From NCBI GenBank assembly GCA_028823995.1, contig JAPPFD010000022.1:18790-81432 (forward strand): DNA of 62,643 nt, given 5' to 3'. Below the pieces are notes generated by a model, which was not told the origin of the DNA, did not search any database, and was given only the letters and a program-made list of their open reading frames with translations. Shown one piece after another: positions 48,910 to 59,684 of this stretch (positions are counted from its first letter, which is position 1; the number at the start of each line of letters is the position of its first letter). Made by a program: the position numbers and the translations under genes. Origin of the DNA: a bacterium. Lineage in GTDB: Bacteria > Actinomycetota > Acidimicrobiia > Spongiisociales > ZC4RG35.

Positions 48910-49542
48910 ATGAAGCAGTCGTATGTCGCCGAGTTGGTCGGCACATTCATCCTGGTGTCGATAGGGTCGCTGGCTGCTCTCTCCTCGGACGGGAACCTGT
49001 TGATCGTGGCCTTCGGGTTCGGGTTTGCCTTGATGATCGCCCTTTACTCGGTAGGTCATATCTCGGGAGGGCACTTCAACCCGGCGGTGAGCCTGGCTAT
49101 GCGGCTGGGAGGGTCCCTGAGCACCAATGACATGATCGGCTACTGGGTGGCCCAGGTCGTGGGTGCGGTACTTGCTTCGTTGGCGGTACTCGCCATGGCG
49201 GGGTCCGATGCGGTGGCCGACACCATGAACACCTACCGGGACACCGGCCCGGCATTCGGAGCCGAGATCCTTCTCACCGGGGCTTTCGTGTTGGTGATCA
49301 TGGTGGTTGCCGGCCACGGTCTCGGTCACGCAAGGACCGTGATCTCCCTGGCCTTGGTCGCCATCCACCTGGCCGGGGTGCCGATCTCCGGCGCCTCCGT
49401 GAACCCCGCCCGTTCGTTGGGTCCGGCGGTGGTGGCCGGCGACCTGAGCGGCATCTGGCTGTACATCGTGGCGCCGCTGGCGGGGGCCGTGGTGGCCTGG
49501 CTGGTCACCAGGGTGGCGCGCACCGGTCCGGTGGACGCCTAG
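48910..49542 (+). CDS. Aquaporin (MIP family)
   Basis: 210 residues, six membrane segments with two half-helices carrying NPA at 57-59 (GGHFNPAVS) and 165-167 (GASVNPARS). The short loop and Arg168 fit a water channel of the AqpZ type rather than a glycerol facilitator. AGGAGG sits 8 nt before ATG 48910. trpD starts 14 nt downstream on the same strand, so they may be co-transcribed. Confidence 0.93.
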   Translation: MKQSYVAELVGTFILVSIGSLAALSSDGNLLIVAFGFGFALMIALYSVGHISGGHFNPAVSLAMRLGGSLSTNDMIGYWVAQVVGAVLASLAVLAMAGSDAVADTMNTYRDTGPAFGAEILLTGAFVLVIMVVAGHGLGHARTVISLALVAIHLAGVPISGASVNPARSLGPAVVAGDLSGIWLYIVAPLAGAVVAWLVTRVARTGPVDA

Positions 49543-49556
49543 GCGGAGAACCCTGC

Positions 49557-50564
49557 ATGAACTGGTCCGAAATACTCGGAAAACTGACCGCCGGGGAGGA
49601 TCTGAGCCGATCCGAGGCTCGGGGGGCACTGGACGACATCATGAGCGGGCGGGCAACTGCGGCTCAGACCTCCGCGTTCCTGGTCTCCCTCCGTATCAAG
49701 GGCGAGACCACCGAGGAGATGGCCGGATTGGTGGAGACCATGCGCTCGGTGGGGGTGCGGGTCTCGATCGGGGAACCGGTGGTGGACACCGCCGGGACCG
49801 GCGGGGACCGCTCGGGTACCTTCAACATCTCCACCACGGCCGCCCTGATCGCAGCCGGGGCGGGCGCCAAAGTGGCGAAGCACGGCAACCGGTCGGCCTC
49901 GTCCAAGTGCGGGTCGGCGGACGTGTTGGAGGCCTTGGGGGTGGGAATCGAACTTGACCCCGAACAGACAGCCGAGATGGTCACGGAAGCAGGGTTCGGG
50001 TTCTTCTTCGCTCCGCGATACCACCCAGCCATGAAGTATGTCGTGCCCATCCGCCAGCAACTGGCCATACCCACCGTCTTCAATTTCCTGGGACCGCTCA
50101 CCAATCCTGCCGGCGCCACCCGTCAGTTGATCGGCGTCTATGACAGCCGGATGGCAGAGCGCATGATCGGGGTGCTGTCGCGCCTGGGGACCGAGCGGGC
50201 GCTGGTGGTCCATGCCGACGACGGGCTGGACGAGGTCTCGGTCTCCGGCCCCACCCGGGGGTTCCAACTGGTGGACGGCGAGGTGACGCCGGTGGTGCTC
50301 ACCCCCGAGGACTTCGGGATGGACCCGGCGGACGTCTCGGAGTTGATCGGCGGTGACGCGGAGACCAATGCTGCGATCCTGCGGTCCGTGCTGGCCGGTG
50401 AGACCGGCCCCCGGAGAGACGCGGCGGTGGCCAACGCGGCGGCCACCCTGATGGTGGCCGGTCTGGCCGAGACCCCGGGCGAAGGCGCCCGGTCGGCGGC
50501 CCGCTCCATCGACTCGGGAGCGGCCGCGGCAGTGCTCGACAGGGTGATCGACCTGAGCCGCTAG
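49557..50564 (+). CDS. trpD: Anthranilate phosphoribosyltransferase
   Basis: 335 residues, usual length. Second step of tryptophan synthesis. Motifs: GTGGD (80-84) for PRPP pyrophosphate, the KHGNRSASSKCGSADVLEALG stretch (108 onward) and VVHADDGLDE (metal Asp-Glu). No other trp gene is in the window, so the pathway is split. Good start ATG 49557. Confidence 0.95.
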   Translation: MNWSEILGKLTAGEDLSRSEARGALDDIMSGRATAAQTSAFLVSLRIKGETTEEMAGLVETMRSVGVRVSIGEPVVDTAGTGGDRSGTFNISTTAALIAAGAGAKVAKHGNRSASSKCGSADVLEALGVGIELDPEQTAEMVTEAGFGFFFAPRYHPAMKYVVPIRQQLAIPTVFNFLGPLTNPAGATRQLIGVYDSRMAERMIGVLSRLGTERALVVHADDGLDEVSVSGPTRGFQLVDGEVTPVVLTPEDFGMDPADVSELIGGDAETNAAILRSVLAGETGPRRDAAVANAAATLMVAGLAETPGEGARSAARSIDSGAAAAVLDRVIDLSR

Positions 50565-50634
50565 TCCGTGTCTTCCCGGCCGCGGCCGGAGCAAGTGGAG
50601 AAGGTTGAGTCGACCCTGCGAATCCGGTCAGGCT

Positions 50635-50640
50635 TATAGT
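50635..50640 (+). promoter_or_regulatory. -10 box of the first UGA-containing redox gene
   Basis: TATAGT ends 7 nt before the ATG at 50648, with no ribosome binding site between, implying a leaderless message. Confidence 0.5.
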
Positions 50641-50647
50641 TTCCGCC

Positions 50648-51175
50648 ATGGAGCGCCGCCACAGCCAGGTGGTTCTGGTCGGGATAGTCCTGTTCGCGTT
50701 TCTCACGGCTTCGTGTAGCTCCGGAATCGGGGAACCGGCCGAAGACTTCAACCTGGAGTTGCAAACAGGGGGCACCTTCGTGCTCGCTGAGCAGACGACC
50801 CCAGTGCTGCTGTTCTTCTGGGCGGAGTGGTGACCGGTATGCAAGCGGCAGTTGCCGGATATCGAAACGTTGGGCGCAGAATACGAGGGCCGGGCGGTTG
50901 TCCTGGCTCCTGCAGTTCAATCGAGCTTGGAGCGCGCCGCCGCGGTCGCCGGGCAGCTATTGCCCTCGGGCCTGGTGCCATGGGGTTTGGATGTTGACCA
51001 GGGGGTCTTCGCCGCTTACGGGTTCCGCGGCGTGCCTGCCGGCGCCATTGTGGCCTCCGACGGCACTCTGATGGACACCTGGCAGGGATCCAGGGATATC
51101 GATGAGATCAAGGCCCTATTGGACGGTCTGCTGTCGATGTCCGATGAAGCAATGGGGAGGGTTTCACCTTCTTAG
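50648..51175 (+). CDS. Putative selenoprotein 1: thioredoxin-like lipoprotein with UxxC
   Basis: 175 residues if UGA 50831-50833 is read as selenocysteine (U62). Signal peptide with lipobox TASC (Cys23), almost no linker (24-30), then a TlpA/thioredoxin-like domain: DFNLELQTGGTFVL, LLFFWAEW-U-PVC (Cys65), KRQLPDIETL, LVPWGLDVDQGVFAAYG and the cis-Pro loop GVPAGAIVASDG. The UGA lies exactly at the first active-site Cys. The frame continues 113 codons to TAG with clear similarity to the two paralogues. A hairpin follows the UGA directly. Probably a membrane-tethered extracytoplasmic thiol/disulfide or peroxide enzyme. Alternatives: UGA read as Cys, or a truncated 61-residue product. Confidence 0.85.
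50834..50858 (+). promoter_or_regulatory. SECIS-like hairpin 1
   Basis: Starts one nucleotide after the UGA. CCGGTA can pair with TGCCGG and TGC with GGCA, leaving a bulged GT; an alternative in the register of the other two genes is CGGC-AGTT-GCCG (50846-50857). The apical AGTT matches the loops of hairpins 2 and 3. Confidence 0.55.
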
Positions 51176-51261
51176 CACCTGGAAGAGGGCACTCATGTCG
51201 GGTCGCCCGAACCGGGAGGGCGCGCCTTGTGGATCTAAAGCGCATTGTGCCTGCTAATACC

Positions 51262-51267
51262 TATACT
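51262..51267 (+). promoter_or_regulatory. -10 box of the second UGA-containing redox gene
   Basis: TATACT ends 8 nt before ATG 51276, again without a ribosome binding site. Gene 2 therefore seems to have its own promoter in the 100-nt gap after gene 1. Confidence 0.5.
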
Positions 51268-51275
51268 TTTCCCAA

Positions 51276-52097
51276 ATGAAGCGTCGTGGACGTTGGTCGG
51301 GGATAGCAGGTCTGGTCCTGCTGTCGCTGGTTGCCGCGTCGTGCGGCGGAGGGTCGGATACCGGAGGTGAGCCGGCGGAGGTGACCGCCGCCGCGGACAC
51401 CGTTCCGGACACGACGGCCGCTCCCACAACCACCGCGGCCGCGCCGGCCACCACGGCCGCGGCGTCCACCGCTACCACCGAAGCAGCGACGGCAACCACC
51501 TCGGCGCCGACCACCACTGCGGCTCCCGACCCCGCTCCCACCGAGAGTGAAGCCGCACCCGAGACCCCGGCCGAGGAGCCCGAGACCACCACGACGACCA
51601 CGGTCCCGCCGCCGGAGCCCCTCGGGCCGCCGGCGCCGGACTTCACCCTGGAGTTGGGTACGGGAGGAACGTTCGTGCTCTCCCAGCAAACCACCCCGGT
51701 GGTGATCTTCTTCTGGGCGGAGTGGTGACCGGCGTGTCAGCGGGAGTTGCCCGCTGTAGATCGGTTGGCTGAGGAGTACGAGGGCCGGGTCGTCGTGGTG
51801 GCGCCGGCCTGGAAGTCAAGCCTGGAGGACACCGCCGACGCCGCGGCGCAGCTGATCCCCTCGGGCAAGGTGCTCTGGGGGCTGGACGAGACACAGGAGA
51901 TCTTCGCCGCCTACGGGGTGGGCGGCCAACCGGCCGGCGCCATAGTCGCCGCCGACGGGTCCCTGGTCGTCACCTGGCCGGGCGCCAGGGGCGGCGCGGC
52001 AATCCGGGAGGATCTGGATGCGCTGTTGAGCGGTAGCAACTCTTTCTCGATCGGCTCGGCTTCGGCTGGTTCAGCCACCCTCTCGGGTCCCGGGTGA
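51276..52097 (+). CDS. Putative selenoprotein 2: tethered thioredoxin-like lipoprotein with UxxC
   Basis: 273 residues with UGA 51726-51728 as U151. Lipobox AASC (Cys23), then a linker of about 97 residues made of Thr, Ala, Pro and Glu, then the redox domain: DFTLELGTGGTFVLSQ, VIFFWAEW-U-PAC (Cys154), QRELPAVDRLAEEYEG, LWGLDETQEIFAAYG, cis-Pro loop GQPAGAIVAADG. The part after the UGA is the one most similar to paralogue 1, which shows that it is translated and under selection. The stop overlaps the GTG of the third gene (GTGA). Role and alternatives as for paralogue 1; the longer tether should carry the domain further into the wall. Confidence 0.87.
51729..51764 (+). promoter_or_regulatory. 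SECIS-like hairpin 2
   Basis: A perfect 7-bp stem CAGCGGG-AGTTG-CCCGCTG (51738-51756) begins 9 nt after the UGA; CCG (51729-51731) and CGG (51762-51764) can close a short outer stem. Bacterial SECIS elements lie directly behind the UGA and present a GU-containing apical loop to SelB, as here. Confidence 0.7.
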
Positions 52098-53176
52098 ATG
52101 ACGTAGTACCGGCCTGGAGGTCGGTTTTGGGTCGGCTTCTGCTGACCCTCTCGGTGTTGGGCGGCCTCCTGTTGGGCGCCTGCGGATCCGAGGACACGGG
52201 TTCCCAGGCCGAGAGCGCCCCTGCACCGACCACCTCCGCTCCTGCGACCACCGCTCAACCCGAGGAGGCGCCCTCCACGGGTGTCGCAACCACGGCTGCG
52301 GAAGAGGGTGAAGAGGCGGTACCCACCACCACCGCTGCACCTGAACCCCCGACCACCACCACGGTTCCCCAGCAGGTCGAGGCCACCGCCCAGGAGGTGG
52401 AGGAGACTCCGACCCCGGAGAGCCCCACCACCACCGAGGCCGCCACCACAACCACGGAAGCCTCGACCACGACAACCGCCGCCACGACCACTACGGAGGC
52501 GCCCACTACGACCGCGGCGCCCACTACGACCGCGGCTCCCACCACCACTACCACGGTGGCGCCAACTACCACCACGACCAAGGCTCCTGCAACAGCCAGG
52601 AGGCCGCCGACCACCACTACCACGGTGGCGCCTACCACTACCACGACCAAGGCCCCTGCCACGGCCAGGAGGCCGCCGACCACCACCACGACCACCACAG
52701 TGCCGCCTACTACCACCACCACCACGGCTCCCACGACCACCACCCAGCCGCACAACCGGGAATCCGCTCCCGACTTCACCCTGGAGTTGGGAGACGGCGG
52801 CACCTTCACTCTCTCCGCCGAGCCCCGGCCCGTGTTCCTGGTCTTCTGGGCTGAGTGGTGACCGTCGTGTCAACGGGAGTTGCCCGTTATCGATGGTCTG
52901 GCCACCGAATACCAGGATCGGGTGGCGTTCGTGGCGCCGGCCTGGAAAGCCCCTTTGAGCGCCACCTCCAGCCGGGCGAACCAGTTGCTCAGGTCGGGAC
53001 TGGTCATGTGGGGACTGGACGAGAACCAGCGGATCTTCTCGGCCTACGGGGTGGGTTACCAGCCGGTGACCATCCTGGTTGGGGCCGACAAAACCATTGT
53101 CAAGACGTTGCATGGTGGACAGGGTGCCTCCACCCTGCGGGCGGCGATCGAAGAGTTGCTGTCGATCTCCGGCTAG
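52094..53176 (+). CDS. Putative selenoprotein 3: long-tether thioredoxin-like lipoprotein with UxxC
   Basis: 360 residues with UGA 52859-52861 as U256. GTG 52094 overlaps the stop of gene 2, so translation is coupled. Lipobox LGAC (Cys30), then a tether of about 194 residues that is almost only Thr, Pro, Ala and Val and holds two copies of a 23-residue repeat. The redox domain reads DFTLELGDGGTFTLS, FLVFWAEW-U-PSC (Cys259), QRELPVIDGLATEYQD, MWGLDENQRIFSAYG and the cis-Pro loop YQPVTILVGADK. The end (SLSIS-type helix) is intact. Same function class as the other two; most divergent around the cis-Pro, so its partner may differ. Confidence 0.87.
52541..52678 (+). repeat. Two 69-bp direct repeats in the tether of selenoprotein 3
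   Basis: Units start at 52541 and 52610 and encode TTTTTVAPTTTTTKAPATAR plus RPP. Third-position differences show that the duplication is not very recent. The region is prone to length change. Confidence 0.9.
52862..52896 (+). promoter_or_regulatory. SECIS-like hairpin 3
   Basis: Inner stem AACGGG-AGTTG-CCCGTT (52872-52888) and outer stem CCGTCG (52862-52867) with CGATGG (52891-52896, one G-U), separated by a small internal loop; about 35 nt, starting right after the UGA. Compared with hairpin 2, a G-C pair has become A-T on both sides, a compensatory change. Confidence 0.75.
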
Positions 53177-53219
53177 CTTCCCTGCGGTGCTGGGTGGGCC
53201 AATCCGGCGCTGACCGGGA

Positions 53220-53225
53220 CATAAT
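53220..53225 (+). promoter_or_regulatory. -10 box of the lipase-like gene
   Basis: CATAAT ends 9 nt before ATG 53235, no ribosome binding site. Confidence 0.35.
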
Positions 53226-53234
53226 TGCGTTCTG

Positions 53235-54629
53235 ATGAGACTCTGGGAATGGCTGCTCACCGGCGTGTGCGTGCTGGCGGTGCTGTGGCCGGCCCTGGAA
53301 GGCCGGCGTCCCCGCCGGGGCATCGCCGCCACGGTGCTGGTGGCCGTCCTGGCCTGGCAGTTCCTGGCGGAGGGTTTCCGCTGGCAACTCTGGGGGTTGT
53401 ACGTGGTCGCCCTGGGAATGGCACTGGGCGATGTACTCACCGGGGAGCGCCAACTGGTCTCCTACCAGCGCATCCGGAGAGCCGCCCTGGGTCTCCTGGG
53501 GGTCCTGTTGGTGGTGACCCCGGTGTGGGCGCTGCCGATCGTGGAGATACCCCCTCCCACCGGCCCCTACCAGGTGGCCACCACCAGCCTGGAGCTCTCG
53601 GGCGTGGACCGCGTGGAGGAGTACGGCCCCCACGCGGGGAGCTTTCGGCGGCTGATGGTCCAGGCCTGGTATCCCGCCAGGGCGCCCGAGGACGCCGAGC
53701 CGCTCACTCCCTGGGTGGCCGACCTGGACGTGGTCGGGCCGGCGATGGCCGAGTCGTTCGGGCTGCCGGGGTTCTTTCTGAATCACACCCGGTACACCCC
53801 CTCCCACAGCTACGGGGAGGCTGCTGCATACCGGGGAGAGATCCCCGTGATCATCTACTCCCACGGCTGGCGGTTGTTCCGCAACGCGGCGGTTCACCAG
53901 ATGGAGTCCCTGGCCAGCCATGGCTACCTGGTGATCGCGGTGGATCACCCCTACGGGTCGGTGGCCACCGTCTTCGGAGACGGCGAGATCGCCCTCCTGG
54001 ATCCCGAGGCGCTGCCCGATTCCGAAGAGGTGGGAGACGAGGCCTTCGAGGAGGCGGCCATCCGGCTGCTGGAGACCTATTCGGAGGATGTGCGCATGGT
54101 CATCAGGGGATTGGAACAGGGAGTGAACGGGCCCTTCGGCTGGCTGGCCGGGATGGCGGACCTGGACCGGCTGGGCATATACGGCCACTCCCTGGGGGGA
54201 GGCGCGGCGGTGAGGACCTGTCTCCTGGAGCCTGTCTGCCGGGTGGTGGCGGCCCTGGACGGGTGGGTGGAGCCGATCACCTCTGCGGAGCTCTCCGGCG
54301 AACTGGACGTGCCGTCGATGTTCATCCGCTCCGACCCCTGGCGGGAGTTGGAGAACGACCAGGTGCTGCGGGGACTGGTGGAGCGGAGCAACCGGCGGAC
54401 CTACTGGATAGGCGTCCAGAACACCGTTCACAGCGATTTCACCATCGCCCCGCTGCTCTCTCCCCTGGGTAGCCGCCTGGGGTTGAGAGGAACCATGCCG
54501 GTCGCCCAGGCGTTTGCGGTGGTCGACCATTACCTGGTGGAGTTCTTCGATCGGCACCTCCTGGGAGTCGGAGGCAGGGAGTTGACCGAGGCGCCGCCCG
54601 CCGGGGTCTCGTTCGAACTGATCCCCTAG
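53235..54629 (+). CDS. PAF-acetylhydrolase-like alpha/beta hydrolase with membrane N terminus
   Basis: 464 residues. Three to four hydrophobic segments in the first 110 residues, then an alpha/beta hydrolase domain of the platelet-activating factor acetylhydrolase isoform II type: YSHGW (oxyanion-hole area, about 211-215), the nucleophile Ser319 in YGHSLGGGAA, and a late His in NTVHSDFT. It probably hydrolyses a lipid ester or short acyl group at the membrane. It follows the three UGA genes on the same strand after 58 nt, and may be a separate unit. Convergent with the ccm operon. Confidence 0.85.
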   Translation: MRLWEWLLTGVCVLAVLWPALEGRRPRRGIAATVLVAVLAWQFLAEGFRWQLWGLYVVALGMALGDVLTGERQLVSYQRIRRAALGLLGVLLVVTPVWALPIVEIPPPTGPYQVATTSLELSGVDRVEEYGPHAGSFRRLMVQAWYPARAPEDAEPLTPWVADLDVVGPAMAESFGLPGFFLNHTRYTPSHSYGEAAAYRGEIPVIIYSHGWRLFRNAAVHQMESLASHGYLVIAVDHPYGSVATVFGDGEIALLDPEALPDSEEVGDEAFEEAAIRLLETYSEDVRMVIRGLEQGVNGPFGWLAGMADLDRLGIYGHSLGGGAAVRTCLLEPVCRVVAALDGWVEPITSAELSGELDVPSMFIRSDPWRELENDQVLRGLVERSNRRTYWIGVQNTVHSDFTIAPLLSPLGSRLGLRGTMPVAQAFAVVDHYLVEFFDRHLLGVGGRELTEAPPAGVSFELIP

Positions 54630-54642
54630 GAGGGGCTGAGCC

Positions 54643-55203
54643 TCACTCCGGCCGGCCGCTCCCGAGGATCAGGTCGATCTGGCGGCCCAGCGAGAGAGAG
54701 TCGGAGGGACCGGTGAACCTTGCGGCGACCACCCCGTCGGGTCCGATGAAGAAGGTCTCGGGGATCCCGAACACCCCGAATGCGATGGCGGCGCGACTCC
54801 CTGGATCGGCCGCGTACCTGACCAGGGGAGAGACGCCCAACTCGTTCAGGAAGGCGATCGAGTCGTCGAGGCGGTCCTGGTACGCCACCTGGATGAGGCG
54901 GACCCCCGAGTCCGAGAAGGCTTCGGCGACGGCCAGGAGGTCGGGATGCTCCACCCGGCACTCGAGGCACCACGAGGCGAAGAAGTTGATCACCGTCACC
55001 CGGGCCTCCGGGTCGGGGATGGCGATCTCGCCGGATCCATCCAGGAGGGGGAGGGTCAACACCGGGGAGGGCGCGCCGACCAGGGGCGAATCGGAGGGTT
55101 GGGGGTCCTCGGAGAGGCGGGTGGCGAACACCCCGGCAAGCACGGCCATGGCGGCGGCCACCGCCACCGCCAGCACCACCGCGGCTCGTCCCGGTCGCCT
55201 CAT
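54643..55203 (-). CDS. TlpA/CcmG-like thiol-disulfide protein, last gene of ccm operon
   Basis: 186 residues from ATG 55203 (ATGA overlap with the TPR gene; a GTG at 55212 would add three). One N-terminal membrane anchor (about 9-28), then a TlpA-like domain with NFFASWCLECRVEHPDL, where both Cys are ordinary, and the cis-Pro loop FGIPETFFIGPDG. It should keep apocytochrome or CcmH thiols reduced during haem attachment. Note the contrast with the three neighbouring paralogue-like domains that use UGA at the first Cys. Confidence 0.88.
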   Translation of the reverse strand: MRRPGRAAVVLAVAVAAAMAVLAGVFATRLSEDPQPSDSPLVGAPSPVLTLPLLDGSGEIAIPDPEARVTVINFFASWCLECRVEHPDLLAVAEAFSDSGVRLIQVAYQDRLDDSIAFLNELGVSPLVRYAADPGSRAAIAFGVFGIPETFFIGPDGVVAARFTGPSDSLSLGRQIDLILGSGRPE

Positions 55204-55988
55204 CTCGCGCACTCCTCACCTGCTCGGGCCGCCGCCAACTCGGCTGCCACCGTCTCCTCGGAGGAAAGCGCCGCGTTCGCCTCTTCAAGAAGGGGGACGG
55301 CTTCCGCCGCCTTCCCGGCGCCGCACCACAGGACGATGGCTTTGAAGTAGAGCGCCTGGGGATGGCCGGGAACCGCCTGGAGCGCCCGGTCCAGCGTATC
55401 GACCGCCAGCTCGATCTCTCCCGACCCCGCCCAGGCCATCCATCCCAGGCGGCTCAGCGCCTCCGCCTCTTCGGCGGCCGTCGGGCTGCGTTCCAGCACC
55501 CCTCGGTAATGGGCGAAGGCCCGCCCGAAGTCACCGGCCCGGAAGTAGCGTCCGGCCAGGGCGAGGCGCATGCCGTTGATCTGGGGGTGGTCGGCATTGG
55601 CGGAGATCACCGCCTCCATGGTCTCATTGGAGTACTGGGACGGATCGAACTCCCCCCCGTCGGCGTCGGCCTGGTCTTCGGGCTGGACGAACCATCCAAC
55701 CGAGATCACCAGTGCCGCCGCCGCGGTCCCCAGAATGGCGACGACCGTCACCCTCCCGGGTGTCCAGAATCGGGACCGGGAGTCCCGATCGGGAGACTCG
55801 GGGTCCGCCGGGACCGACGCCTCCCCGGCCAGCCTGAGCCGGGCTTCTTCTATCTCCTCGGTGTAGACCCGCCGGAGGCGCCGGGCGGTGGAGGGAGGTA
55901 TCTCATCGGTGGCGAGCTGTTGTTCCAACTCCTCCAGGTCCCGGGTGGCTTGATCGAGGCGCGCCTGCCAGTGGCTTTCCTCGCTCAC
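55200..55988 (-). CDS. TPR protein, CcmI/CycH-like
   Basis: 262 residues from GTG 55988, overlapping the ccmH stop as GTGA. N-terminal helical stretch rich in charged residues (about 1-60, coiled-coil-like), one membrane segment (about 77-97), then TPR repeats (MRLALAGRYFRAGDFGRAFAH and following). Occupies the place of ccmI, whose product presents apocytochrome c to the CcmFH ligase. Assignment rests mainly on position and architecture. Confidence 0.75.
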   Translation of the reverse strand: MSEESHWQARLDQATRDLEELEQQLATDEIPPSTARRLRRVYTEEIEEARLRLAGEASVPADPESPDRDSRSRFWTPGRVTVVAILGTAAAALVISVGWFVQPEDQADADGGEFDPSQYSNETMEAVISANADHPQINGMRLALAGRYFRAGDFGRAFAHYRGVLERSPTAAEEAEALSRLGWMAWAGSGEIELAVDTLDRALQAVPGHPQALYFKAIVLWCGAGKAAEAVPLLEEANAALSSEETVAAELAAARAGEECAR

Positions 55989-56408
55989 GGCGACTCCCTG
56001 ACCGACTCCGGGGGTACGGGCTTTCTGAGGCGGTAATAGGCCAGGAGGAGACCGGTCACCAACGCGGCGGCGGGGAGCGCCCACAGGAGGGCGGTTCTGG
56101 TCTGGAACGGGGGATCGAGCATCTGTGATTGGGGATAGGCCGCCATGAGCCGGTCAATTATCTGTTGGTCGGATCGGCCTTCGGTGATCATCTCCCGGAC
56201 ATAGCCCATCATGTCGGCGGCGTAGGAACTGGGGGACTCGGCGATGGACTCCCCCTCGCAGGCCGGGCACCGGACCTGTTTGCCGATCCGCTCGGCGCGG
56301 TCCTGGTCAACCGGGTCGGCGGTGGTTAGCGAGACGACCACGAAGGCGGCCAAGGCCAGGGTCACCAGGGGAGAGGCCCAACGGAGCAGGCTGCGCCGAC
56401 CGGCGGGA

Positions 56409-56416
<8 letters not shown>
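55985..56416 (-). CDS. ccmH: Cytochrome c maturation protein CcmH
   Basis: 143 residues from GTG 56416. N-terminal membrane segment, the redox motif VRCPACEGESIAES (RCxxC), a helical bundle (YAADMMGYVREMITEGRSDQQIID) and, after DPPF, a C-terminal membrane segment. CcmH reduces or holds the CxxCH thiols of apocytochrome c. Overlaps the ccmF stop by 8 nt. Confidence 0.92.
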
Positions 56417-58465
<2,049 letters not shown>

Positions 58466-58466
<1 letters not shown>

Positions 58467-58873
58467 CAGCGGGAGCCGTCGTCGGCCACCGGAGGCGCCT
58501 GGTAGTTCTCGTCATGGGAGATGAGGGCGCCGTCGGCCCGGTAGTCATCACCCAGCCAGGCTCCGTCCAGGAGTACGTTGACGTCCTCGTCGAACAGCAG
58601 GGGCGGAGTGTCGGTGAGGATCACCGGAATGGTGGAGGCGCCGTCGGTGACCTGGAACCGGAGAGGGTCCGATCCGGCATCCAGGGAACCCTCCACCACG
58701 ATGCCCGCCAGCCGGAACCGCCGCCCGTCGGGGAAGTCGGCTCGCTGGTCCACCGCTTCGCGCGGGGTGAGATAGTAGACCAGGTCGCTGTCGATGTTCC
58801 GGATCAGGAAGACTCCGGCTATCAGCATCGCCACCCCGACGAAGATCAGAAACGGCCAGCGGCGTGACTTCAT
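58466..58873 (-). CDS. ccmE: Haem chaperone CcmE
   Basis: 135 residues from ATG 58873. N-terminal membrane anchor, then the OB-fold domain (VYYLTPREAVDQ, RRFRLAGIVVEGSL, VTDGASTIPVILTDTPPLLFDE). The covalent haem ligand is in ISHDENYQAPP, the His form (HxxxY), not the Cys variant known from some archaea and bacteria. Longer upstream frames overlap ccmD and are not used. Confidence 0.94.
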
Positions 58874-58983
58874 CAGTCCGGGCGACTCGTCGCCCTTCGC
58901 CACCGGATCCCCAGGCGGAGGATGTAGCCCGCCAGGAGCCCGGCCGTGGCCAGATAGGCCGCCCAGACCCAGCCGATGTTCAC
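58873..58983 (-). CDS. ccmD: Small membrane protein CcmD
   Basis: 36 residues from GTG 58983: MNIGWVWAAYLATAGLL..., one membrane segment with Trp/Tyr at its start, then a basic tail (RLGIRWRRATSRPD). Size, topology and position between ccmC and ccmE are those of CcmD, which helps release holo-CcmE from CcmABC. GTG overlaps the ccmC stop (GTGA) and its TGA overlaps the ccmE ATG (TGATG). Easily missed because of its length. Confidence 0.85.
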   Translation of the reverse strand: MNIGWVWAAYLATAGLLAGYILRLGIRWRRATSRPD

Positions 58984-59684
58984 GCTTCGGCCTCACCCAA
59001 CCGGGGGACCGTCACCGGGCTCCGCGCGGGGGCTCTCTCGGCGGCCGCGGCCTCTTCCATGCGGGCCAGGGCGGTCCGGTAGACGAGCAGCGTCGCGTAG
59101 AGAAGTGTGAAGGCCGCCAGGTTCACCAACAGGGCCGAGACCATGGCGCCGTCCATCTGGATGCCGTCGGGCCGGATCGTCAAACCCTGGTGAAGAGTGC
59201 GCCACAGCTTCACCGAGAAGTAGACCAGCGGCACCTGCACCACGGCGACGGCGCCCAGCACCGACGAGCGGCGAGCCCGCAGGCGAGGGTCGACGGTGGT
59301 GCGGCGCAGCGCCAGGTAGCCCAGGTACACGAAGAACATCATGGCCGTGGTGGCCAGGCGGGCGTCCCCCCAGTCCCAGTAGGTCCCCCACACGGGCTTT
59401 CCCCAGATCATGCCGGTCGCCAGGGCGATGGCGGTGAACAGCACTCCTATCTCTGCGGATGCCTCGGCCGCCCTATCCCAGCTCATCCGCCGGGTGAACA
59501 GCCATCCGATGCTTGCGGCGGCGGTCACCCCGAAGGCCAGGAAGGCAAGCCAGGCCGACGGGACATGGATGTAGAGGATGCGGACGAAGTCCCCTTGGAG
59601 GAGGTCGGGGGGAGAGGTGAAAGCCAGGACCAGGCCGACTCCCAGCGCCACGCCGGTCAAGACTGCCAGCAACCTCTTTTTCAC
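58980..59684 (-). CDS. ccmC: Haem exporter/handling protein CcmC
   Basis: 234 residues from GTG 59684, six membrane segments. The WWD motif reads WGTYWDWGDARL (about 98-109), with flanking His in ILYIHVPSAW and TLHQGLT, the haem ligands of CcmC. It loads haem on CcmE. GTG start overlaps the ccmB stop as GTGA. The C-terminal tail is long and Ala/Arg-rich. Confidence 0.94.
   Translation of the reverse strand: MKKRLLAVLTGVALGVGLVLAFTSPPDLLQGDFVRILYIHVPSAWLAFLAFGVTAAASIGWLFTRRMSWDRAAEASAEIGVLFTAIALATGMIWGKPVWGTYWDWGDARLATTAMMFFVYLGYLALRRTTVDPRLRARRSSVLGAVAVVQVPLVYFSVKLWRTLHQGLTIRPDGIQMDGAMVSALLVNLAAFTLLYATLLVYRTALARMEEAAAAERAPARSPVTVPRLGEAEA

Follow-up and report, generated by a model that had tools for sequence, protein, structure and literature searches.

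A tandem trio of predicted lipoproteins with in-frame UGA codons

The window, by which we mean the whole stretch of 62,643 nucleotides that was analysed, carries three adjacent genes, here termed g1, g2 and g3, for predicted lipoproteins with a ResA-like domain (Table 1). A preliminary description of this DNA had read each of them as passing in frame through FWAEW-UGA into P-x-C, and this is confirmed by coordinates and frames. Behind the nine-residue motif FWAEW-U-PxC the frames remain open for 110 (g1), 119 (g2) and 101 codons (g3), and the extensions can be aligned with one another, those of the other two genes showing 57% and 41% identity to that of g1. Upon read-through, matches above cut-off to the Pfam families PF00578, PF08534 and PF00085 span the UGA in the trio. 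With UxxC in place, g1, g2 and g3 reach AhpC-TSA scores of 49.2, 53 and 43.9 bits (cut-off 26) and Redoxin scores of 40.3, 48 and 41.6 bits (cut-off 26.6). The proposed lipoprotein nature of the products agrees with our own pattern test, which recognised a lipobox-type N terminus in all three proteins and in 101 of the 108 family copies described below, lipidation itself being predicted. The genes g2 and g3 overlap by GTGA, with the TGA stop of g2 lying inside the GTG start of g3, and g2 therefore carries one Sec-like UGA (Sec, selenocysteine) plus one stop-like UGA. Synteny identifies a trpD-like gene as the upstream neighbour of many family copies across the order.

Table 1. Features of the trio locus and its neighbourhood (positions in the window)
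Feature	Position	Strand	Remarks
trpD-like gene	49557..50564	+	Glycos_transf_3 family (Pfam; the name trpD is our own); upstream of trio
g1, predicted lipoprotein, ResA-like	50648..51175	+	ATG start, TAG stop; predicted Sec, WUPVC
g1 lipobox Cys codon	50714..50716	+	LTASC; sequence reading and N-terminus pattern test
g1 in-frame UGA	50831..50833	+	first active-site Cys column, FWAEW-U-PVC
g1 hairpin region	50843..50861	+	core CGGC-AGUU-GCCG; weak, -5.0 kcal/mol (stem alone), misses bSECIS limit
g2, predicted lipoprotein, ResA-like	51276..52097	+	ATG start, TGA stop; predicted Sec, WUPAC
g2 lipobox Cys codon	51342..51344	+	VAASC; sequence and pattern test
g2 in-frame UGA	51726..51728	+	FWAEW-U-PAC
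g2 bSECIS-like hairpin	51738..51756	+	CAGCGGG-AGUUG-CCCGCUG; 7 bp, -12.2 kcal/mol
g3, predicted lipoprotein, ResA-like	52094..53176	+	GTG start, TAG stop; predicted Sec, WUPSC
g3 lipobox Cys codon	52181..52183	+	LLGAC; sequence and pattern test
g3 in-frame UGA	52859..52861	+	FWAEW-U-PSC
g3 bSECIS-like hairpin	52871..52889	+	AACGGG-AGUUG-CCCGUU; 6 bp, -7.2 (stem alone) to -8.0 (19 nt) kcal/mol
PAF-AH-like hydrolase	53235..54629	+	PF03403, 73.2 bits; downstream of trio
Cys-type CcmG-like thioredoxin	54643..55203	-	FFASWCLEC; near end of convergent cytochrome-c maturation cluster
Remaining cytochrome-c maturation cluster	55200..59684	-	Pfam and synteny
TPR protein, CcmI-like (own naming)	55203-55988	-	cytochrome-c maturation cluster
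CcmH	55988-56416	-	cytochrome-c maturation cluster
CcmF	56412-58466	-	cytochrome-c maturation cluster
Cytochrome c assembly protein, CcmC-like (own naming)	58983-59684	-	cytochrome-c maturation cluster

The family is order-wide, with low dN/dS behind the UGA

Genomes were searched with a domain profile (A3, 16 rows). At 1e-30, it matched 97 of the 138 genomes in the order, with 110 copies, 104 with TGA and six without a stop; further stops among the 104, a second TGA in one and TAG in two, are gene ends. At 1e-35, matches were found in 91 of 395 genomes of the class, all within the order. At 1e-22, 16 of 396 genomes of the phylum matched, seven belonging to the order and nine lying outside the class; these nine (4e-27 to 6e-23) include four with TGA. 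The idea that the selenoprotein is peculiar to the trio was thus not upheld, as the family is spread over the order, nearly always with UGA, and the triplication is the genus-specific part. Nor are selenoproteins as rare in actinobacteria as had been assumed: the available part of a 2006 survey counts 12 families and 19 proteins, with 12 of the actinobacterial listings coming from Symbiobacterium thermophilum, which was then placed in Actinobacteria (PMC1794560). A phage or mobile origin was rejected, a tblastn search of phage records with the g3 domain having returned two weak matches (26.6% and 43.1% identity).

The stretches fetched for closer analysis comprised 150 hits, 115 of them distinct, of which 108 form the FWAEW family and seven served as outgroup only; the second copy of G032 was left out, and the copy of G075 was dropped because its sequence is identical to that of the G078 copy. 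At the column of the in-frame UGA, the 108 copies have TGA in 102 cases, TGC in five and TGT in one, and the 102 distinct TGA copies, three of which are cut by a contig end, stem from 92 genomes. In other genera the same column holds Cys codons, in keeping with the assignment of the UGA to the first Cys of CxxC in all three genes. Within the genus, five further genomes have orthologues with UGA at the same place, though not each of them has all three. Over 99 codons behind the UGA, dN/dS was 0.03-0.23 in 11 pairwise orthologue comparisons, and together with the paralogue alignment and the Pfam matches across the UGA this bears out the earlier claim that these parts are translated and selected.

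An RNA hairpin directly behind the UGA

The 40 nt from each UGA could be aligned free of gaps in 102 rows. They contain a proximal hairpin with a 7-pair stem and an AGUUG loop, which starts 9 nt after the UGA and has 16 nt between UGA and loop. In the 97 distinct rows, 90.3% of the stem cells are paired, both sides have changed in 37 cells, and covariation amounts to 0.215 versus 0.117 in shuffled alignments. None of 500 shuffles was as high on any of these three measures, on all of which the true register also exceeded slides of 1-3 columns; on further pair types it tied with slide -1. Double changes occurred in four pairs, a number equalled by 44 of 500 shuffles, the outermost pair is formed in just 60 of the 102 UGA copies, and unaided RNAalifold recovered three pairs at -0.52 kcal/mol. 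For the family as a whole, covariation speaks in favour of the hairpin. Of the 102 UGA copies, 81 encode the loop Leu by TTG and nine by TTA; none uses CTG, which accounts for 453 of 1217 Leu codons elsewhere in the same domains. The six Cys copies have CTC (three), ATG (two) or CTG (one) at this codon, and four of the six inner pairs are seen in no more than two of them.

The available part of PMC13188914 defines a bSECIS element by a loop of 3-9 nt with G in the first two positions, a stem of 4-16 bp, a distance of 16-37 nt from the UGA and an energy of at most -7.5. With our own coding of these rules (unbulged stem, stem-loop energy alone), 86 of the 102 UGA copies passed, and 100 did so at -6 kcal/mol; the best hairpin was the proximal one in 91. 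Among the controls, the rules were passed by none of the six Cys copies, 192 of 2040 letter-shuffled sequences and eight of 50 terminal UGAs belonging to these genes. Within the window, g2 conforms in all points (-12.2), g3 falls narrowly short (-7.2) and g1 falls short (-5.0). Folding the region to minimum energy does not produce the g1 hairpin either (z 0.09), and since this hairpin is weak, the case for g1 draws on homology, selection and motif, and less on the hairpin. The terminal UGA of g2, one of the eight that pass, likewise has such a hairpin, so that the hairpin alone cannot separate Sec from stop, and we rejected it as sole proof of Sec. A common loop was sought at the UGA of selD in the same genome, where a stable stem (-19.9 kcal/mol, 45 nt) carries a different loop; a single loop shared by all selenoproteins of the genome is therefore unsupported.

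In 12 UGA copies the proximal loop codon is CUC or CUU. Eleven of these have a 7-bp stem exactly 35 nt after the UGA, with the loop AGUU (seven) or GGUC (four), energies of -8.3 to -9.7 kcal/mol and a U-A to C-G exchange within the stem; L144, the one remaining copy, has neither. The GGUC hairpin is additionally present in four of the 90 UUG/UUA copies (L096, L100, L124 and L139), six others of which have some other stem of at least 5 bp at a spacing of 30-40, and no such distal stem was found in the six Cys copies. This was a post hoc finding, looked for after the sequences had been seen, and its simplest reading is that the signal relocated 19 nt downstream in some lineages via copies with both hairpins. 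These lineages offer a natural experiment in the movement of a selenocysteine signal within a gene.

Decoding of UGA and exchange of Sec for Cys

The genome assembly (2.94 Mb in 40 contigs, 94.8% complete) encodes a tRNA-Sec with the anticodon TCA, which is UCA in the RNA. The selA and selB genes adjoin on one contig, and a SelD is present whose own active site reads HGAG-UGA-GCK. The two computational checks proposed beforehand thus gave the expected result, one asking for selA, selB, selD and tRNA-Sec, the other for Cys at the UGA column in homologues.

In a tree of 115 rows the family forms one group (99/97), and many forks are left unresolved by the small number of alignment columns. Sec is the widespread state, while Cys needs four changes, three of them forced by well-supported branches. 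The Cys cases comprise a three-genome clade (100/96) among Sec rows, the copies of G079 and G088, the latter sharing a starred group with two Sec rows, and the long-branched second copy of G090, the position of which is unsure. SelB exceeded the cut-off in 82 of 92 UGA genomes versus one of five Cys-only genomes (Fisher p 0.0013, kinship ignored), and the four Cys-only genomes devoid of SelB have no tRNA-Sec either. A tRNA-Sec candidate in G027 (51.6 bits, above the gathering score) is a tRNA-Ser, and G027 was counted as having no tRNA-Sec. G031 possesses SelB and tRNA-Sec, yet uses Cys. Ten UGA genomes have no SelB over the cut-off, five of which have a tRNA-Sec and the other five of which are 56-77% complete. 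As 30 of the 41 genomes in the order that lack the family also have SelB, the family is not the sole reason to retain Sec. Nature has run an experiment on Sec versus Cys here, in which the hairpin is lost with Sec and the machinery as well in four of five cases.

Judged from these sequence comparisons, the trio very likely represents selenocysteine-containing, lipid-anchored ResA-like oxidoreductases, predicted to reduce disulfides outside the cell membrane. The selenoprotein interpretation as a whole is supported by the machinery, the Cys homologues and the lipobox N termini. If the window is taken alone, it gives no more than in-frame UGAs at a Cys column, which an altered tRNA might decode as Cys or Trp instead of Sec. 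Such decoding is very improbable in a genome that encodes tRNA-Sec(UCA), SelA, SelB and SelD and that uses UGA as a normal stop: the 16 clear genes of the window end in TAG (eight), TGA (six) or TAA (two), g2 itself ends in a TGA, and 51 of the 102 UGA copies of the family also have a terminal UGA. Against it stand furthermore the retention of the hairpin in UGA copies and its disruption in Cys copies, and the lack of SelB and tRNA-Sec in four of five Cys-only genomes. Sequencing errors or gene decay, with the FWAEW half as the product or a pseudogene at the locus, would match two public proteins (P0006, P0007) that stop exactly at FWAEW, as automatic annotation gives, but can practically be dismissed given TGA at the same codon in nearly all distinct copies, the low dN/dS behind it and 84-122 open codons after the UGA in 134 TGA hits.

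Triplication, tethers and deviating residues of g1

Three copies are present in four of the six genomes of the genus (G000, G002, G003 and G005). G004 has two; the trpD-like match there ends 605 nt upstream of the UGA in g2, so that g1 is missing; G001 has one full and one partial copy on two contigs. The g1 and g2 orthologues group at 100/100, and g3 forms a separate set at 99/98. The tethers between lipobox Cys and domain comprise 7 residues in g1, 96 in g2 and 194 in g3 of the window, the latter two being Thr/Pro-rich. Across the genus they measure 7-8, 71-97 and 168-194 residues, and in 87 other copies 21-115 residues with a median of 55.

A Glu three residues after the second active-site Cys is found in 105 of the 108 copies. 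The three exceptions are the g1 proteins encoded in the window, in L025 and in L028, which have Gln at this column, that of ResA Glu80. The residue before the cis-Pro is Gln in 101 copies and Val in the same three proteins and in the g1 of L027. The E80Q variant of ResA is deficient according to the available part of PMC5909903, and g1 may therefore act differently.

Known relatives

The trio was not filed under ResA or CcmG, since scores against NCBIfam ResA (NF002854) are 46.3, 40.6 and 54.1 bits for g1, g2 and g3 where 170 are required, and since the CcmG fingerprint GVxGxPETF, as given in the available part of PMC5909903, is replaced by GFRGVPAGA, GVGGQPAGA and GVGYQPVTI; the likeness of work is retained. 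The predicted Sec in place of the first Cys sets the trio apart from Bacillus subtilis ResA and from CcmG/TlpA-like proteins. ResA, at 26% identity, differs further by the predicted lipid anchor and mostly long tether of the trio and by Leu before the cis-Pro, where the family mostly has Gln.

The available part of PMC13188914 lists two selenoprotein families with UxxC, 'Prx-like thiol:disulfide oxidoreductase' (PF00578) and 'Redoxin family protein' (PF08534), and UxxC selenoproteins with these domains also appear in the consulted parts of PMC9312934 and of the GOS survey PMC2398784. Compared by description, they share with the trio the UxxC and the Pfam domains over cut-off, and the kind of protein is therefore known. 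The FWAEWUxxC subfamily, the AGUUG hairpin and the tandem were not found in the available part of PMC13188914, the main text of which mentions neither lipoproteins nor actinobacteria. ResA-like WAxxUGC proteins (NF041054, WAxxUGC_long) likewise combine a ResA-like domain with Sec, but their motif is UGC versus UxxC in the trio, which scores 19.4-22.3 of the required 300 bits. The thioredoxin lipoproteins Etrx1 and Etrx2 of Streptococcus pneumoniae have Cys, whereas Sec is predicted for the trio, and work from two operons in partnership with CcdA and MsrAB2, as far as described in the available part of PMC3914529. A literature search, which covered few subscription journals, returned no description of the subfamily, the hairpin, the lipoprotein form or the tandem. 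Here, the UxxC selenoprotein is order-wide, predicted to lie outside the membrane, often located beside cytochrome c maturation genes and tandemly multiplied, and it is apparently an ancestral trait of this actinobacterial group, which entered the analysis as genome assemblies.

The family is sparsely represented in protein databases. A search of 5.8 billion sequences for short exact-word relatives gave seven matches at 1e-10, versus 104 UGA copies by genome search. Five of the seven are full-length with FWAEWC, and the two ending exactly at FWAEW indicate that annotation truncated those genes at the UGA.

Proposed function

During synthesis, SelB loaded with Sec-tRNA(UCA) would dock onto the hairpin beginning 9 nt after the UGA, Sec would be inserted and the remaining half of the thioredoxin fold would be translated. 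Once the protein is exported and lipidated, its UxxC site would attack the disulfide of a target, forming a selenenylsulfide with the resolving Cys, and a CcdA/DsbD-type membrane protein, one of which is encoded in the genome, could reduce it again. By fold and neighbourhood, apocytochromes c, or else other surface proteins whose cysteines are oxidised, would be the likeliest clients, and three copies with tethers about 7, 96 and 194 residues long may offer one chemistry at different distances from the membrane. Against a cytochrome c client, the cytochrome c maturation cluster already contains a Cys-type CcmG-like protein, its genes are convergent and do not share an operon with the trio, and the scores against NCBIfam ResA are low.

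We tentatively propose that membrane-side thiol reduction in the order, most likely in cytochrome c maturation, runs on an ancestral Sec-containing ResA, the RNA signal of which moved in some lineages. One genus would have gained a triplicated, graded set that spaces Sec from the membrane by about 7, 96 and 194 residues, and its innermost copy may have been retuned, with Gln for Glu and Val before the cis-Pro, to a different redox job. A similarly tentative possibility, modelled on pneumococcal Etrx1/Etrx2, is that the same selenoproteins support methionine sulfoxide reductase or peroxidase in the repair of oxidised surface proteins instead of serving cytochrome c maturation. The recurring neighbours, however, are trpD-like and cytochrome c maturation genes, no msr gene was seen among the annotated neighbours, nine of which were run against Pfam, and ResA is the better fold match, with the Glu retained in all but three copies of the family.

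Variant hairpins behind the UGA codon

In copies of the predicted Sec lipoprotein family in which the loop of the usual proximal hairpin (AGUUG, stem starting 9 nt behind the UGA) is altered, a second 7-bp hairpin with the loop AGUU or GGUC was found at a spacing of 35 nt behind the UGA. Both hairpins are present together in L096, L100 and L124, which are stretches from other genomes. The hairpins at spacing 35 look like SECIS elements that have been shifted inside the gene. The UGA copy of genome G065 has neither the usual hairpin, which it has lost, nor the distal one, although SelB is encoded in this genome; possibly, Sec decoding is declining there or a different signal is used. A second, divergent UGA copy is present in two genomes, G057 and G044, and has the motif WUPYC, a Thr preceding the cis-Pro and the compensated hairpin GCAAGGG-AGUUG-CCCUUGC.

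Features and their locations
Feature	Location	Remark
Spacing-35 hairpin	L092, L105, L109, L110, L112, L113, L119, L122, L128, L130, L131	altered proximal loop
UGA copy of G065	L144:874-913	usual hairpin lost
Divergent second UGA copies	L135:2634-3038; L141	
Stem behind terminal UGA of g2	window 52095-52139	7 bp, loop UGGA
SelD in-frame UGA	L021:1531-1533	HGAG-U-GCK; same genome as window
Recurrent gene order	window 48910-59684	also in relatives
FWESW-TGA-TVC protein	L167, TGA at 1594 of reverse complement	- strand

Further UGA codons and gene neighborhood

The stem behind the terminal UGA of g2, the second gene of the trio, is also present in the same-genus stretches L024, L025 and L028 and absent from L027. 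Readthrough would extend g2 by only U-M-T before TAA/TAG. The stem may merely reflect coding of the g3 signal peptide or, alternatively, may indicate leaky Sec decoding. The hairpin behind the SelD UGA differs from those of the trio in its loop.

The recurrent gene order comprises a trpD-like gene, the predicted Sec lipoprotein and a convergent cytochrome-c maturation cluster, often with an aquaporin (MIP) gene upstream.

In another part of the phylum, one family (loci L167 and L169) encodes a ResA-like protein of lipoprotein type that is more distantly related (FWESW-TGA-TVC), together with a Cys sister (FWESWCPVC). A TGA occurs in four of the five matching genomes of that family, its position at the column being confirmed in L167 only.
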